A DNA stretch of 64,000 bases from Halovivax asiaticus JCM 14624 (lineage in GTDB: Archaea > Halobacteriota > Halobacteria > Halobacteriales > Natrialbaceae). Shown piece by piece: positions 2,435 to 54,499 of the stretch (position 1 is its first letter; each line of letters opens with the position of its first letter). The notes under the pieces are model-generated. The model was not told the origin of the DNA and made no database searches. It saw nothing but the letters and a program-made list of their open reading frames with translations. The DNA lies in NCBI RefSeq assembly GCF_000337515.1, contig NZ_AOIQ01000017.1, positions 1 to 64,000 on the forward strand. The letters are read 5' to 3'. The position numbers and the translations under genes were made by a program.

Positions 2435-3237
2435 TGACCCTCCTCGAACTGCGCGATATCGAGAAATCCTTCGGCGGCCTCCGGGTCCTCGAAGGCGTCT
2501 CGATGACCGTCGAGGAGGGCTCGATCCAGGGCCTCATCGGCCCGAACGGGGCCGGCAAGACGACGCTGTTCAACCTTGTCTCCGGTCTCCTCCGTGCCGA
2601 TACCGGGACTATCGTCTTCGACGGCACCGACATCACCGATCGCGCGCCGAAGCATATCGCCCGCGACGGCGTCGGGCGCACCTTCCAGCTCACCCGGCCG
2701 TACCCTGGCATGACGACGCAGGACAACCTCTTGCCCGGCCTCGTCTACGCCGGCGGCTACGATCGAGTGAGCACGGCCCGCTCGCGAGCGCTGGAACTGC
2801 TCGACCTCGTGGATCTCGTCGACCTGGCGCACGAGGAGAGTCGCGACCTGACGATGTCCGAGCAGAAGCGACTCGAGATCGCCCGCGCGCTCGCCACGGA
2901 GCCGAAACTCCTCCTATTGGACGAGGTCTTCGCCGGCCTCAGCCACGAGGACGTGGCGCGCCAGATCGAACTGATCGAGGGAATCAGGGCGGAGCTCGAC
3001 GTGACGATCCTGCTGATCGAACACGTCATGGAGGCGACGATGACGGTCTGTGACCGCGTCGGCGTGCTCGCGAACGGCACCATCATCGCCGAAGACGTGC
3101 CGGACGAGATCGTTCACGACGAGCAGGTGATCGACGTCTACCTCGGTTCCGGCCGCGGCGAGGCAGGGACCGGGCCGGACAGTGACGCCACGCCCGACGA
3201 AGACGTGCCCGAAACCGGAGGTGGTCTCGATGGGTGA
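2434..3237 (+). CDS. livG: ABC transporter ATP-binding protein, LivG family
   Basis: A 267-residue ATPase for the LIV-type importer. Walker A is GPNGAGKTT at residues 36-44 and Walker B is LLLLDE at about 157-162, followed by the LivG-type loop VFAGL and a switch histidine in LIEHVME. The signature motif is unusual: where LivG proteins normally have L-S-Y-G-Q-Q or L-S-G-G-Q, this one reads LTMSEQ (about 138-143), lacking the glycine that contacts ATP in the partner subunit. The C-terminal 25 residues are a loose acidic tail. An upstream in-frame GTG at 2431 is possible, but the ATG at 2434 overlaps the livM stop in the usual ATGA manner. Confidence 0.9.
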   Translation: MTLLELRDIEKSFGGLRVLEGVSMTVEEGSIQGLIGPNGAGKTTLFNLVSGLLRADTGTIVFDGTDITDRAPKHIARDGVGRTFQLTRPYPGMTTQDNLLPGLVYAGGYDRVSTARSRALELLDLVDLVDLAHEESRDLTMSEQKRLEIARALATEPKLLLLDEVFAGLSHEDVARQIELIEGIRAELDVTILLIEHVMEATMTVCDRVGVLANGTIIAEDVPDEIVHDEQVIDVYLGSGRGEAGTGPDSDATPDEDVPETGGGLDG

Positions 3238-23797: not shown

Positions 23798-23902
23798 TGG
23801 GCCCTGTCGGATTCGAACCAACGACCACTCGGTATCCCACGAACCCGGGGACACCGGCTTCGTTATGAGCCGAGCGCTCTTACCAGACTGAGCTAAGGGC
23901 CC
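23798..23902 (-). tRNA. tRNA-Met (CAU), elongator, with a 30-base intron
   Basis: The acceptor stem GGGCCCT/AGGGCCC, D-arm GCTC..GAGC, and T-arm GTTGG-TTCGAAT-CCGAC are all present. The anticodon arm is CTCGG-CTCATAA-CCGAG once a roughly 30-base insertion after position 37 is removed, leaving a 75-base mature tRNA plus discriminator A. The intron position one base 3' of the anticodon is the canonical archaeal site. Introns in the elongator tRNA-Met gene are known in haloarchaea. No CCA is encoded. Confidence 0.9.
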
Positions 23903-24549: not shown

Positions 24550-24647
24550 ATCGACCCTTCGTCGCTCGACCGCGAAATAGGCTGGGTGCCGGAAATATTG
24601 TCTTCGCTCGGAGCTACCGCTCCTCGCGAGTAGTGTTCGAAAAACAG

Positions 24648-24720
24648 CGCCGAAGCCAGGACTCGAACCTGGGACAACCTCGTTAACAGCGAGGTGCTCT
24701 ACCATCTGAGCTACTTCGGC
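24648..24720 (-). tRNA. tRNA-Asn (GUU)
   Basis: A complete 73-base cloverleaf: acceptor GCCGAAG/CTTCGGC with discriminator G, D-arm GCTCAGATGGTAGAGC, anticodon arm CCTCG-CTGTTAA-CGAGG giving anticodon GUU, and T-arm CCAGG-TTCGAGT-CCTGG. No intron. A T-run follows the 3' end on the minus strand. Confidence 0.95.
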
Positions 24721-30196: not shown

Positions 30197-30269
30197 GTCC
30201 TGGTAGGGTAGTGGACTATCCTCTTGGCTTGCGGAGCCAGGGACCGGAGTTCAAATCTCCGTCAGGACG
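30197..30269 (+). tRNA. tRNA-Arg (GCG)
   Basis: A 73-base cloverleaf: acceptor GTCCTGG/TCAGGAC with discriminator G, anticodon arm TTGGC-TTGCGGA-GCCAG giving anticodon GCG, and T-arm CGGAG-TTCAAAT-CTCCG. No intron and no encoded CCA. Its 3' end is followed by an array of partial copies of itself. Confidence 0.9.
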
Positions 30270-30428
30270 CTTCTTCCACATCAACACCTTGAGCAGCGCG
30301 AAGCGCTGCGAAAACGCGTTGTGGAAGAAGCGATACGCGGAGATTTGAGCAGACGAGTCGCAGTGCGCGTAGCGACCAACGGGAGCGAGCGCAACCGTCT
30401 CGGCGAGTTCAAATCTCCGTCAGGACGC
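30247..30428 (+). repeat. tRNA-Arg 3'-end duplication flanking a nested-hairpin element
   Basis: The last 23 bases of the tRNA plus one (30247-30270) recur exactly at 30405-30428. Between them lie, in order: a hairpin with 11-base arms (30270-30280 and 30320-30330); an inverted T-arm copy CGGAGATTTGA (30338-30348); a constant block GCAGACGAGTCGCAG (30349-30363); a 30-base spacer with pairing ends TGCGC/GCGCA; and a constant block ACCGTCTCGGCG (30394-30405). The inverted T-arm pairs with the T-arm of the downstream copy, and AGACG pairs with CGTCT, so the unit can fold as nested stems. The constant blocks recur at 52.3 kb. Confidence 0.85.
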
Positions 30429-30589
30429 TCACTCCTCATGCGAGGTCCGAGCGAACGAAGTGAGCAAGGACCTCGATCAGATGAACGGTGAACGAAGTGA
30501 ACCGTGAGTCGCGGATGCTTCGCAGCGCGGAGCATCCGCTTCGTCTTTCGGTCCTGACGTGCCTTACGCTCACGTCCGTTCGCGTAAGA

Positions 30590-30680
30590 CTCCGTCAGGA
30601 CGTTTCTCTTCAGCACACCACTGCGAGCGTAGCGAGCAGTCTGTGTTGAAGGACACTCAAACACGGAGATTTGAGCAGAC
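30590..30680 (+). repeat. Further partial copy of the tRNA-Arg-linked element
   Basis: CTCCGTCAGGACG at 30590-30602 repeats the terminal 13 bases of tRNA-Arg. It is followed by an imperfect hairpin (TTCAGCACA...TGTGTTGAA) and, at 30664-30680, by another inverted T-arm joined to the constant block start (CGGAGATTTGAGCAGAC), after which similarity fades. The 558 bases from 30270 to 30827 hold no gene that I can support and are made mostly of such repeats and short TTCG-centred palindromes. Confidence 0.7.
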
Positions 30681-30827
30681 CGGTGGCAGTGTGAACGAAC
30701 CCCCCGATCGTCGGTCTCAGGTCAGACTCCCTCGTCGAAACGACTATCGGCGCTCGACACGCATCGCAACCTGTCTGGTCAGCGACCCGTCTCGACGCCG
30801 CTGGCTGTTCGACGATCGTTCGATCCA

Positions 30828-50937: not shown

Positions 50938-51924
50938 TCAGGGCTTCGTCTCGTCGGCCGTCGTCTCTCCGCCATCCTCCCAGCCCGGCGTTTCCGGAGC
51001 ACCGCGATCGACTTCGAGCTGCTCCGCGAGTGCGGGGGACAGGCTCGAATCGACGTCCGATTCCCCGTCTCGCTCTGCGGCGGCCAGCCGTTCCCACTCG
51101 TCGATCGCCGAACCAGCCCACGAGGTCGTCTCGAGGGTCCTCTCGCGCGCTTGCTCGTAGTGCGGCTCGGAGTGCGCCAGCGTGCCGGGACTCGATGCCG
51201 CGGCGACGGCGACAAACTCGGCTCGGTCCGCCGCGGTCGGCTCGCCGCGTGCGATCCGGTCGACCGCCCCCTCGATCGCGGTCGGATCCGGATGACAGAA
51301 CACCTTTCCGCCGACCGCCTGCGGGCCGAAGAGCGGTCCGTCCTCGCCGGAAATCGTCGCCGCGCCGTCGGTCGACAGAAGTCGTGGCTCGCCCGTCGCC
51401 GCTTCGACTCGCTCGCACTCGGTCGGCTGGTCGAGCGCGACGTTGTGTGCCGGATAGGCCCCACATTCGGCGGGGTACAGTTCGTCCTCGTGAATCCGAC
51501 ACTGCAACGTCGTCGGGTCGAGGAAGACACAGGTCGGGACCACGGCAGCCTCGGTTCGTCCGAACGGCGCAACCGGTTTCGGGGGTTTTCGCAACCCGAT
51601 GAAGAAGGCCGGTCGCCCGTGCACGGCCGCGACCCGCCGTTCGCCGACGTCGACGTGTGGATCGGCTTCGCCAGCCGCCCACAGCCGCGGCGTCAGCACG
51701 TCGCCCAGCCCGGCGTCGACGAACGCCCTGACCTCGTCTCGCTCGAGCGGCACGAGGTTGGCCACGCCATCGAGCGACGGGAACGGCCCACGCTGGCCGT
51801 CGTCGGTAGTCGGCGAGGCCGATTGCGTCTCGTCGTCACCCTCGCTCTCGTTAGATTCGCTCTCGTCGATCAGCGGCCGCCAGTCGAGACAGCACCCGGC
51901 ACAGCCACGACACCGCACTTCCAT
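50938..51924 (-). CDS. YkgJ-family cysteine cluster protein
   Basis: A 328-residue protein with the zinc- or iron-chelating cysteine cluster: MEVRCRGCAGCCLDWRP at the N-terminus, VPTCVFLDPTTLQCRIHEDELYPAECGAYPAHN (about residues 133-165) and later VFCHPDP. The C-x2-C-x2-C-C and C-x8-C-x-I-x-x-x-R/E-P-x-x-C pattern defines the YkgJ/CxxCxxCC family. An acidic insertion (about 20-45) splits the first cluster from the fold. The role of the family is not established; the C-terminal 100 residues are helical and acidic. Confidence 0.85.
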   Translation of the reverse strand: MEVRCRGCAGCCLDWRPLIDESESNESEGDDETQSASPTTDDGQRGPFPSLDGVANLVPLERDEVRAFVDAGLGDVLTPRLWAAGEADPHVDVGERRVAAVHGRPAFFIGLRKPPKPVAPFGRTEAAVVPTCVFLDPTTLQCRIHEDELYPAECGAYPAHNVALDQPTECERVEAATGEPRLLSTDGAATISGEDGPLFGPQAVGGKVFCHPDPTAIEGAVDRIARGEPTAADRAEFVAVAAASSPGTLAHSEPHYEQARERTLETTSWAGSAIDEWERLAAAERDGESDVDSSLSPALAEQLEVDRGAPETPGWEDGGETTADETKP

Positions 51925-52260
51925 ACGCGATCATCGACAGCGATGACAAAAACGTTCACCCTGCCCGGAGAGCGAATTGTCGCCTCGGCAGTCGAAATCA
52001 ATGTGGGGCAAAATGAAACGTGCAGTAGCACGTCGACAGGGTGCGCACGTTTTTGTTCGTGACAGGGGAGCGTGTGTTTTCGCCGGTTTCGTGGAGCGCG
52101 TTCGTGAGCCGCGCCGTTCTCCGGGACGCTGTTCTCGGCTCCCGCCGGTCGCCGTTCACTATCCGAGGCCTCACGTTCGTTCGGCCTCGCGGTTCACGGA
52201 TCGCTACGCTCCCCGTTCGCAGTATCGCGGTTCTCGGACCTGCGGTCCTCGAACCGCGCA
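51925..52260. other. Intergenic repeat-rich region, no gene
   Basis: A 336-base stretch upstream of the YkgJ-type gene. Frames across it are Arg- and Thr-rich and not credible as protein. It holds a copy of the repeat unit seen at 38.5 kb (52195-52219, two mismatches to 38536-38560) and the hairpin GGACC-TGC-GGTCC near 52240. Confidence 0.6.
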
Positions 52261-52407
52261 GCGGAAGGGGTGGGATTTGAACGCGCCGAGACGGTCCGGG
52301 TCGCTCACTTCGTTCGCGTCCCGGGCTGCGACTCGTCTGCTCAAATCCCACAGTCTTCGCTTTCCTCACTGACGTTCGGAAAAGCGGAAGGGGTGGGATT
52401 TGAACGC
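52261..52407 (-). repeat. Second locus of the tRNA-linked nested-hairpin element
   Basis: On the minus strand the terminal 24 bases of the tRNA-like gene (52384-52407) recur exactly at 52261-52284. Between them lie a small hairpin (TTTTCC...GGAAAG), an inverted T-arm GTGGGATTTGA (52341-52351), the constant block GCAGACGAGTCGCAG (52326-52340), a 30-base spacer (52296-52325) with pairing ends CCGGG/CCCGG, and the constant block ACCGTCTCGGCG (52284-52295). The order, the 22-base and 12-base constant matches and the 30-base spacing are identical to the tRNA-Arg locus, while the T-arm and spacer sequences differ. Confidence 0.85.
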
Positions 52408-52474
52408 CACTCGGCCTCTCGGCCGCCGCGGGCCGGATGGCACCGCGGTGCTCTTGCCGCTGAGCGACCCTTCC
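52385..52474 (-). tRNA. tRNA-like gene, isotype uncertain (possible pseudo-tRNA)
   Basis: The acceptor stem GGAAGGG/CCCTTCC and D-arm GCTC-AGCGGCAA-GAGC are good. The anticodon region CCGCG-GTGCCATCCGGCC-CGCGG has a loop about 6 bases too long, with TGCCA suggesting Gly (GCC). A hairpin GGCC-GAGA-GGCC sits in the variable region as in class II tRNAs. The T-arm GTGGCGTTCAAATCCCAC has one base more than the canonical GTGGG-TTCAAAT-CCCAC. These faults argue for a degenerate or recombined tRNA gene, or for an unusual intron. Confidence 0.45.
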
Positions 52475-52645
52475 GCACTCGACTTCGATGGCCGGTTCGA
52501 TATTCGTAATCGGCTCGTTACTGCGCAGTAGGTGGCGGTTTCGCCGGAGATCGGAACGAAACCGACAGCCAGGAAACCGTTTTCGACTGTCACCGTTCGT
52601 GGACAGTCGTCAGTTTTAGGGCGACCCCGGCCTCCCTCTCTGACA

Positions 52646-54499
52646 GTGCAACCAGCGCGGATCTTCGACGCCTTTCCCGCCCCGAGTTACCGCGGGAATC
52701 AGGAACGAGCCCTCCAGGACATTCGCGACGCGTTTGCGACCGGCAACGACGTGGTCTTCGTGCGCGCACCGACGGGCAGCGGCAAGTCCCTGCTCGCTCG
52801 CGCGATCGCCGGCTGTGCGCGCACCGTCGAGGAGGCCGAGCCGAGCGAGGCCAGCGGCGCCTACTACACCACGCCGCAGGTCTCACAGTTAGACGACGTC
52901 GCCGAGGACGACCTGCTGGCCGACCTGAACATCATCCGCGGGAAGGGCAACTACAGCTGTATCCTCCCCGGCGAGGAGGGCACGCCGGTGAACCAGGCGC
53001 CCTGTGTGCGCGAGCGCGGCTACGACTGCGACGTCAAACACCGCTGTCCGTACTTCTCCGACCGCGCAATTGCCTCCAATCGCGAGATCGCGGCGATGAC
53101 GCTCGCGTACTTCATGCAGACCGCGGGCAGCGAGGTCTTTCGCAAGCGCGACGTCGTCGTCATCGACGAGGCCCACGGCCTCGCCGAGTGGGCCGAGATG
53201 TACGCGACGATCCACCTCGGCCCGCGGACGATCCCGTTCTGGGACGACCTCCGAGTGCCAGATCTCGACGCCGCCGACACAGATCCGATCGAGCGGGCGG
53301 CAACCTACGCCGAGAACCTCGCCGAGGTCTGTACTCGCCGCAAGGACGAGTTGCTCGCCCAGGAGCAACTCACGCCCGCAGGGGTTCGCGAACGCGACCG
53401 TCTGCAGGAACTCATCGGCGAACTCGACTGGTTCGTCTCAGACTATCGCGATCCCCAGAGTCCGACCACGTGGCTGGTCGACCAGACTACCCCGCCGGCC
53501 GACGCGTCGACGAGCGACGAGGCTGTCGGGCCGTCGGACGGCGCGGGCGACGGACCCGCAGGCGGGCCGGTGACGATTAAACCGATGGATCCCGAGCGCT
53601 ACCTCGCGCACACGGTCTGGGATCGGGGGAACAAGTTTGCCTTGCTCTCGGCGACGATCCTCAACAAGGACGCGTTCTGTCGACAGGTCGGTCTCGACCC
53701 CGACGACGTCGCGCTCGTCGACGTCGGCCACACTTTCCCCGTCGAGAATCGGCCGCTGTACGACGTCACGCAGGGGAAGATGACCTACGAGCACCGCGAC
53801 GAGACACTCCCGAAGATCGCGCGCACCATCGTCCGGATCATGGCGGCCCACCCCGAGGAGAAGGGGATCGTCCACGCCCACTCCTACGACATCCAGGAGC
53901 GTCTGGCCGAGATGCTCGACGATTTCGGCGTCGGTGCCCGGGTTCGAACGCACGATCGCGACGGCCGCGACGCCGCTCTGAACGCCTGGAAAGCCTCGGA
54001 CGAACCCGACGTCTTCCTCTCGGTGAAGATGGAGGAAGCGCTCGATCTGAAGGGCGACCTCGCGCGCTGGCAGGTCCTCTGCAAGGCGCCGTTCCAGAAC
54101 ACCAGCGACTCCCGGGTGGCCCATCGCCTCGCCGAGGGACAGTGGGCCTGGTACTACCGGGCGACGCTCCGAACGGTCATGCAGGCCTGCGGTCGCGTCG
54201 TCCGCGCCCCCGACGACTATGGGGCGACCTACCTCGCCGACGAGAGCCTGCTCGATTGTTTCGACCGCGCTCGATCCGACATGCCCGACTGGTTCGCCGA
54301 ACAGGTCGATCGCATGTCGATGCCGGACCTCCCGACGTTCGAGCCATCGGCCGCAGTCGGCGACGCGAGCGCGACCCCCGCTCCGACGCCCGACCGCTCG
54401 CCGACTGGCACCGAGAACGATTCGACTGACTCACCGACACGACGCTCCCGCCGAGAACAGTCGAGCCCGCTGGCGGACGTCTGGGACACCGACGGGTGA
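52646..54499 (+). CDS. ATP-dependent DNA helicase, Rad3/XPD family
   Basis: A 617-residue superfamily 2 helicase. Walker A is VRAPTGSGKSLLARA (about residues 37-51), motif II is VVVIDEAHGL (about 170-179), and the C-terminal half has ALLSATILNK (motif III), the SVKMEEALDLKGD region (motif V) and MQACGRVVRAPDDYG (motif VI, QxxGRxxR). Four cysteines between Walker A and motif II (NYSC, APC, YDC, HRC) match the iron-sulfur cluster of XPD/DinG helicases. It unwinds DNA 5' to 3' in repair or recombination. The start is uncertain: I choose the GTG at 52646 (VQPARIFDAFPAPSYR), since sequence upstream does not resemble the family. The C-terminal 80 residues are disordered. Confidence 0.9.
   Translation: MQPARIFDAFPAPSYRGNQERALQDIRDAFATGNDVVFVRAPTGSGKSLLARAIAGCARTVEEAEPSEASGAYYTTPQVSQLDDVAEDDLLADLNIIRGKGNYSCILPGEEGTPVNQAPCVRERGYDCDVKHRCPYFSDRAIASNREIAAMTLAYFMQTAGSEVFRKRDVVVIDEAHGLAEWAEMYATIHLGPRTIPFWDDLRVPDLDAADTDPIERAATYAENLAEVCTRRKDELLAQEQLTPAGVRERDRLQELIGELDWFVSDYRDPQSPTTWLVDQTTPPADASTSDEAVGPSDGAGDGPAGGPVTIKPMDPERYLAHTVWDRGNKFALLSATILNKDAFCRQVGLDPDDVALVDVGHTFPVENRPLYDVTQGKMTYEHRDETLPKIARTIVRIMAAHPEEKGIVHAHSYDIQERLAEMLDDFGVGARVRTHDRDGRDAALNAWKASDEPDVFLSVKMEEALDLKGDLARWQVLCKAPFQNTSDSRVAHRLAEGQWAWYYRATLRTVMQACGRVVRAPDDYGATYLADESLLDCFDRARSDMPDWFAEQVDRMSMPDLPTFEPSAAVGDASATPAPTPDRSPTGTENDSTDSPTRRSRREQSSPLADVWDTDG

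Follow-up and report, generated by a model that had tools for sequence, protein, structure and literature searches.

What is the palindromic sequence that lies directly behind tRNA-Arg(gcg) in the 64-kb window (the whole stretch of DNA analysed here), and why does it end in a further copy of the tRNA's own 3' end? A preliminary description had noted a 24-base duplication, an inverted copy of the T-arm, two constant blocks and a 30-base spacer, and direct reading of the sequence at 30197-30700 and 51900-52800, together with a repeat search, found each of these in its place. The locus is laid out as follows.

30197..30270, plus strand: tRNA-Arg(gcg), the anchor (ARAGORN, Rfam RF00005)
30247-30270, plus strand: first copy of segment a, the 3' part of tRNA-Arg(gcg) (ARAGORN, Rfam RF00005)
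30268..30332, plus strand: trailer hairpin of cassette 1 (inverted repeat; the design recurs at other loci)
30333..30337, plus strand: ATACG, one side of a small internal loop (sequence; a comparable 3-5 nt mismatch at other loci)
30338..30348, plus strand: a', the complement of the T-loop and the T-stem 3' strand, CGGAGATTTGA (inverted repeats; covaries with tRNA identity)
30349..30363, plus strand: core block 1, GCAGACGAGTCGCAG, with helix strand CGAGTCG at 30354-30360 (sequence, covariation)
30364..30393, plus strand: variable terminal stem between the core blocks (comparison with other copies)
30394..30405, plus strand: core block 2, ACCGTCTCGGCG, with helix strand CGTCTCG at 30396-30402 (sequence, covariation)
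30405..30428, plus strand: second tRNA-Arg 3' end copy (a), right end of cassette 1 (direct repeat)
30429..30589, plus strand: type Y cassette, hairpins and GGTCCTGACG at 30550-30559 (comparison with orthologous tRNA-Arg loci)
30590..30691, plus strand: third X cassette, decayed (repeats; its ortholog is the first cassette in the relative G003)

The unit, or cassette, is a gene-free stretch of roughly 110-160 bp consisting of a trailer hairpin, a', a core hairpin and, at its end, another copy of the tRNA 3' end (a). It begins inside the tRNA, with the 5' arm of the trailer starting in the last tRNA bases and the other arm returning to leave a short mismatch facing the acceptor strand. In cassette 1 the trailer arms (30268-30280 and 30320-30332) are 13/13 paired, and ATACG faces the acceptor 3' strand once a' pairs with the tRNA copy. 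The core hairpin of a type X cassette is built from AGTNGCAG/CNTCT around a T.T mismatch and carries a variable tip, and when the single strand of the window's unit is circularised it folds as a dumbbell. Downstream of tRNA-Arg(gcg) the array reads X, Y, decayed X, the last retaining a tRNA-end copy (30590-30602), a trailer hairpin, a' (30664-30674) and a core remnant (30675-30691). The type Y cassette is without the AGTNGCAG core; its GGTCCTGACG complements the acceptor strand, a match also found for the type Y a' at tRNA-Arg(gcg) of relatives. Type Y loops are of the form C-TNC-G and imply that the opposite strand folds compared with type X (in the window, and at L236, L237, L243, L244, L252, L253 and L255). 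There is no open frame of note within the cassettes, and the open reading frames around the window locus include no integrase. A reading as a tRNA intron (bulge-helix-bulge) was rejected, as the junction segments are direct repeats and not complementary.

The same order of elements had been described on the minus strand at 52407-52261, and this was confirmed.

52384..52474, minus strand: second anchor tRNA, tRNA-Arg(ccg) by ARAGORN, called only with introns allowed
52261..52351, minus strand: second X element, best covariance hit of the genome (88 bits, E 2e-19)
52341-52351, minus strand: a' of the second X (sequence, repeats)
52326-52340, minus strand: block 1 of the second X (sequence, repeats)
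52296-52325, minus strand: variable stem of the second X (sequence, repeats)
52284-52295, minus strand: block 2 of the second X (sequence, repeats)
52261-52284, minus strand: tRNA-end copy of the second X (sequence, repeats)

The identity of this second anchor is the less certain of the two, since the gene is missed by Rfam at its cut-off and by ARAGORN unless introns are allowed. The locus is co-linear with G003, the closest relative, and 91% identical over its length. Both window loci have the exact 15-base and 12-base blocks in common, while the parts that differ stay paired. The 15-mer GCAGACGAGTCGCAG has exactly two copies in the 64 kb, and its near matches at up to 3 mismatches are no more frequent than chance predicts, so the constant block is no proof by itself. 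The 30-base spacer is likewise equal at both window loci, but this equality does not extend to the family, in which the variable stem spans about 17-40 bases and sometimes more than 100. At four loci (L003, L004, L315 and L317, the last at tRNA-Lys) further hairpin repeats lie inside the X variable stem and lengthen it to over 80 bases, with the core kept. Elsewhere in the window, a trailer-hairpin-like sequence after tRNA-Asn (24600-24650, minus strand) has no tRNA-end copy and no core and is possibly an empty site or a remnant. A 105-nt tRNA with a CAT anticodon region (23798-23902, minus strand), apparently an intron-containing tRNA-Met, has no X cassette after it.

A pattern made only of the two constant blocks, and carrying nothing of the tRNA, matched 82 stretches in 84,980 prokaryote species genomes, with the titles among the matches listed being those of haloarchaea or halophile MAGs. 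A tRNA gene lies upstream on the same strand within 900 bp of 85/93 pattern-found copies (own genome included), and such copies end with the 3' end of their own tRNA and begin with its complement. In the window's genome a covariance model (R1) found 25 copies at E<=0.004, every one of them directly downstream, on the same strand, of one of 19 tRNA genes; fewer than half of the tRNA genes carry a cassette, at least 41 being recognized by Rfam with the tRNA at 52384 (introns allowed) additional. The same linkage holds for 25/25 copies in G003 and for 30/30 fetched from a second genus, and cassettes were found at 18 tRNA isotypes. Across the class, the covariance model detected the family in 235 of 242 Halobacteria genomes and 70 of 74 genera, with per-genome copy counts being lower bounds. 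The model gives 15 copies for Halobacterium sp. CBA1126 and 2 for Haloferax massiliensis. The seven negative genomes gave no significant match at full sensitivity, and two Halobacteria genomes (G050 and G033) gave no X match even at E<=1; these two yield few first-look candidates and so possibly differ in base composition. Among genomes sampled from the phylum, 20 of 21 haloarchaea matched and none of about 99 non-haloarchaeal genomes did. The full pattern gave no match in viral contigs, and a BLAST search of the element against plasmid and phage collections returned nothing; a single 14-base pattern gave many scattered matches of a chance kind in viral contigs and was discarded. Two X cores have no tRNA nearby (L040 near 2937-3009 and L109 near 1880-1956), and their flanking arms are not tRNA sequence yet are complementary (TGAGT/ACTCA and CGATATC/GGTATCG), perhaps marking off-target insertions. 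Near-universal presence in one class and none outside could also fit a feature that is kept vertically.

The preliminary description saw in the differing but paired parts of the two loci a sign of covariation, and this is well supported, with compensatory changes on both sides of the stems. In 67 sequences, RNAalifold and a direct pair count agree on three helices: an 11-pair helix between the T-arm complement and the T-arm copy, a second of C-N-A-G and N'-G around the T.T mismatch, and a third at the base of the variable stem. Paired cells amount to 93.5% compared with 76.8% after shuffling (0/500 shuffles as good), and both sides have changed at 15 of 19 pairs. The covariation score is 0.465 versus 0.18 for shuffled alignments and at most 0.10 when the structure is slid by one column; the structure was derived from the same alignment, which accounts for part of its lead over the slid versions. 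In the pattern-found copies the constant blocks do not vary because these copies were selected for them; covariation in the second helix rests on copies found without the pattern, at orthologous tRNA-Arg loci, where the variants are AGACGAGTCGCAG/CGTCTCGGCG, AGACCAGTGGCAG/CCTCTGGGCG, AGACAAGTTGCAG/CATCTTGGCG, CACGAGAGTCGCAG/CGTCTCTCACC and AGGGAAGTCGCAG/CGTCTTCCCG. Core variants of the form AGAC-N-AGT-N'-GCAG / C-N-TCT-N'-GG, in which N is G, C or A, stay paired, and the near-invariant part of the core is AGT-N-GCAG opposite N-TCT. An inner helix AGACG/CGTCT was considered and dropped, as the variants show that CNAGTN'G/CNTCTN'G is what is conserved. Arms fit their own partner better than the partners of other copies (p<1/2000). 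An 8-base T-loop, TTCACAAT or TTCATAAT, is frequent in downstream tRNA-end copies (L038, L042, L051, L064, L072, L087, L094 and others), and as this recurs at different tRNAs and genera the T-loop part may travel with the cassette.

In relatives, tRNA-Arg(gcg) is usually followed by an array of one to several units, and the composition of arrays changes between close relatives. Nine clean presence/absence differences between congeners were read in two genera, all of them tRNA-proximal, with gain and proximal loss not separated per case. In G003, tRNA-Arg directly adjoins the ortholog of the window's third cassette, so that X and Y together (about 333 bp) are precisely absent. Extra cassettes are present in G000 at Glu-ttc, Lys-ttt and Ser-tga and in G003 at Cys-gca and Gly-ccc, and the second genus differs at Gly-gcc, Arg-gcg and Pro-cgg. 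At Gly-gcc, cassettes of [156,139] in G077 stand against [139] in G101, the shared cassette being 100% identical. The extra cassette does not duplicate its neighbour (<=79% alike), and cassette order is swapped at Val-cac and Ser-cga. Several loci (Ile-gat, Ser-gga, Leu-tag and Leu-taa) have been rearranged beyond reading, with Ile-gat apparently differing at inner positions. Copies decay outward, with the first tRNA-end copy 0.53 edits from the tRNA and the second 2.57; of the 30 arrays in which two units could be read, 18 have the first copy nearer to the tRNA sequence than the second and 2 have it further away (p=0.0007). Cassettes were split by fuzzy tRNA-end matches, and lengths beyond the first two or three, being unreliable, were excluded.

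Ordinary recombination is the rival that has to be weighed against this turnover. Unequal crossing-over, deletion and gene conversion between the 20-24 bp tRNA-end repeats in polyploid haloarchaea could reshape an old array, with template switching keeping imperfect palindromes matched and no dedicated mobility being needed. The flanking direct repeats are long enough for this, the swapped orders at Val-cac and Ser-cga could equal duplication plus deletion, and a' is a closer fit to the tRNA upstream than to the copy downstream (29 to 5). A deletion between the tRNA and the nearest copy would also be proximal, so that single proximal differences are no proof of gain. However, such recombination does not explain a class-conserved core with fixed AGTNGCAG/CNTCT at so many isotypes, nor why the same core and a few types of variable stem recur across different tRNAs and genera, nor extra cassettes that are not copies of their neighbours. 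Repeated gain is the better reading in view of the age gradient, the foreign cores and the distribution across the class, and we consider repeat recombination by itself an unlikely explanation.

It is near certain that the element is real, structured, tRNA-bound and dynamic, and likely that it is a mobile cassette. The suggestion that it is a small mobile unit carrying its own copy of the local tRNA end has held up well given the class-wide family, the strict tRNA linkage and the presence/absence differences at orthologous tRNAs, and in sequence comparisons mobile behaviour is well supported. Our main reading, to which we give a probability of roughly 0.55, is that of a non-coding mobile cassette that uses the tRNA gene as its docking site and inserts at the tRNA end as folded single-stranded DNA. 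In a single-stranded cassette, a would pair with a' and the unit would become a dumbbell capped by two hairpins, with the tRNA-sense strand being the one that folds. A recombinase from the host or from a mobile genetic element, most likely a tyrosine recombinase, would act on the folded a/a' arm, a mimic of the tRNA T-arm. Joining of the cassette to the intact tRNA gene would then take place inside the 3' segment that both share, restoring the tRNA and pushing earlier cassettes outward, with the crossover at some point between G53 of the tRNA and its 3' end. Within the array of one tRNA the arms already match their target, and for cores to pass from one tRNA to another the near-universal GTTCRAATC could serve. 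What we infer here is the recombinase, the precise crossover point and an intermediate that is single-stranded or circular; integron-like recombination through a single strand is a plausible hypothesis. The fuller proposal of a gene-free integron-like system on tRNA genes, in which class-wide dumbbell cassettes with a T-arm mimic are moved by a recombinase encoded elsewhere, is more tentative and falls somewhat short of even odds. No cargo was found in the cassettes, which appear to be selfish or neutral passengers.

The preliminary description left open whether the fold is a structured RNA or a DNA cruciform, and the question now leans toward DNA on account of GNA triloops on one strand only and few G.T pairs. 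Apical loops are mostly C-GNA-G, and distinct variable stems read on the tRNA-sense strand have C-GNA-G in 83 cases versus C-TNC-G in 1; trailer hairpins have no such strand bias (30 to 36). When folded with DNA parameters, 70/93 copies are more stable as the tRNA-sense strand (p=6e-9), and GNA loops form extraordinarily stable DNA minihairpins (PMC4686876). The alternative would be that the element works as RNA in a read-through transcript or 3' trailer, where a' pairs with the tRNA 3' half or a decoy copy as a tRNA-maturation switch, or where a trailer-derived sRNA is produced. Either copy can pair with a', the stems covary, the strand is always that of the tRNA, and there is a weak microRNA-precursor-like Rfam match, reflecting the long hairpin. 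Yet presence and number vary at orthologous tRNAs between congeners, most tRNA genes do without a cassette, the triloops are of DNA type and not GNRA or UUCG, G.U pairs are rare (2.2% in cassette stems versus 6.7% in tRNAs of the same loci), pyrimidine-rich terminator-like stretches usually separate tRNA and cassette, and Rfam has no family besides tRNA at its cut-off. We regard an RNA element as quite improbable as the explanation of the family, and the cassette fold seems to act as DNA, with which an RNA role is compatible.

The idea that the element recruits an integrase found little support. The cassettes encode no protein, no recombinase gene is systematically linked to them, and an integrase gene is close to only two of the loci inspected. 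These are tyrosine recombinase genes (L060 3-989, minus strand; L092 4392-5414, minus strand) adjoining an X element at tRNA-Val and tRNA-Phe 3'-end copies. At L060 the left arm of the element is not T-arm-like. The two neighbours, together with the preference of archaeal integrases for tRNA 3' ends (PMC8371274), are what would be expected if the cassettes were scars of conventional integrative elements, that is, attachment sites left over after virus or island bodies were lost. This is very unlikely considering the rather uniform unit length, the lack of gene remnants, a core conserved class-wide and the scarcity of integrase neighbours; moreover, at L092 tRNA and cassette are separated by an island that has a tRNA-end copy of its own. 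Chance duplication and palindrome formation, which the commonness of GC-rich hairpins in haloarchaeal intergenic DNA might suggest, is excluded for practical purposes by tRNA-linked copies throughout the genome, the class and a second genus, together with covarying stems.

How, then, do these mobile cassettes relate to known systems? Like integron attC cassettes, they stand in tandem, change at the platform-proximal end and in order, and end in an imperfect palindrome whose pairing is conserved and which has unpaired motifs and a variable stem at its tip. Unlike them, they have no integrase gene, attI or cargo genes, their platform is any of many tRNA genes, and their arm is tRNA sequence instead of the R/L boxes GTTRRRY/RYYYAAC. 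The R box GTTRRRY is absent at the cassette end, which is GTTCRAATC from the tRNA T-loop; no intI or attI was seen in cis, and the neighbour of the array is a tRNA. Archaeal integrons have been reported in metagenome-derived genomes of nine phyla, in a text without words starting haloarch or Halobacter (PMC9668308). Islands and proviruses integrated by archaeal tyrosine recombinases also use a site in the tRNA 3' half, keep the tRNA intact and duplicate its 3' fragment at the far end, but the cassettes differ in their small size, in having no genes or integrase, and in their conserved folded core, inverted T-arm copy and tandem stacking. Xer-dependent integrative elements of the CTX-phi type insert a folded single-stranded hairpin by means of a recombinase that the insert does not encode, as the cassettes would; those elements, however, target dif sites and carry genes, whereas the cassettes target tRNAs. 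MITEs and the SMRs/PATEs of Haloquadratum are likewise short, non-autonomous, palindromic haloarchaeal DNA (PMC3119063), but the cassettes are strictly tRNA-targeted, carry a copy of the target end, have arms that covary with the target and are not defined by the terminal inverted repeats of a known transposon. No fixed terminal repeat was seen outside the tRNA-derived arms, IS ends not having been systematically compared. An IS200/IS605 mechanism was judged unlikely, as these elements leave no target duplication (PMC3119063). No described family fits: integrons fail on intI, attI and the R box and islands on the integrase, with MITE/PATE ends compared to the extent given above. No paper describing these cassettes was found in the searchable open-access literature, and they look like an undescribed kind of mobile DNA.

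Even under the rival explanations, 97% of the sampled Halobacteria genomes have a covarying element beside tRNAs that should be annotated, since it gives rise to spurious tRNA fragments and attachment sites. If the mobile-cassette reading is right, haloarchaea would hold thousands of copies of an unrecognised mobile DNA found only at tRNA genes, which is devoid of genes and relies on base pairing to stay specific for its target. This would be an integron-like cassette system outside the integron family and, in archaea, a naturally occurring example of site-specific recombination that works through structured single-stranded DNA. It may offer a possible tool for DNA insertion at tRNA loci, and would be a possible reason for the much-rearranged tRNA 3' ends in these genomes.
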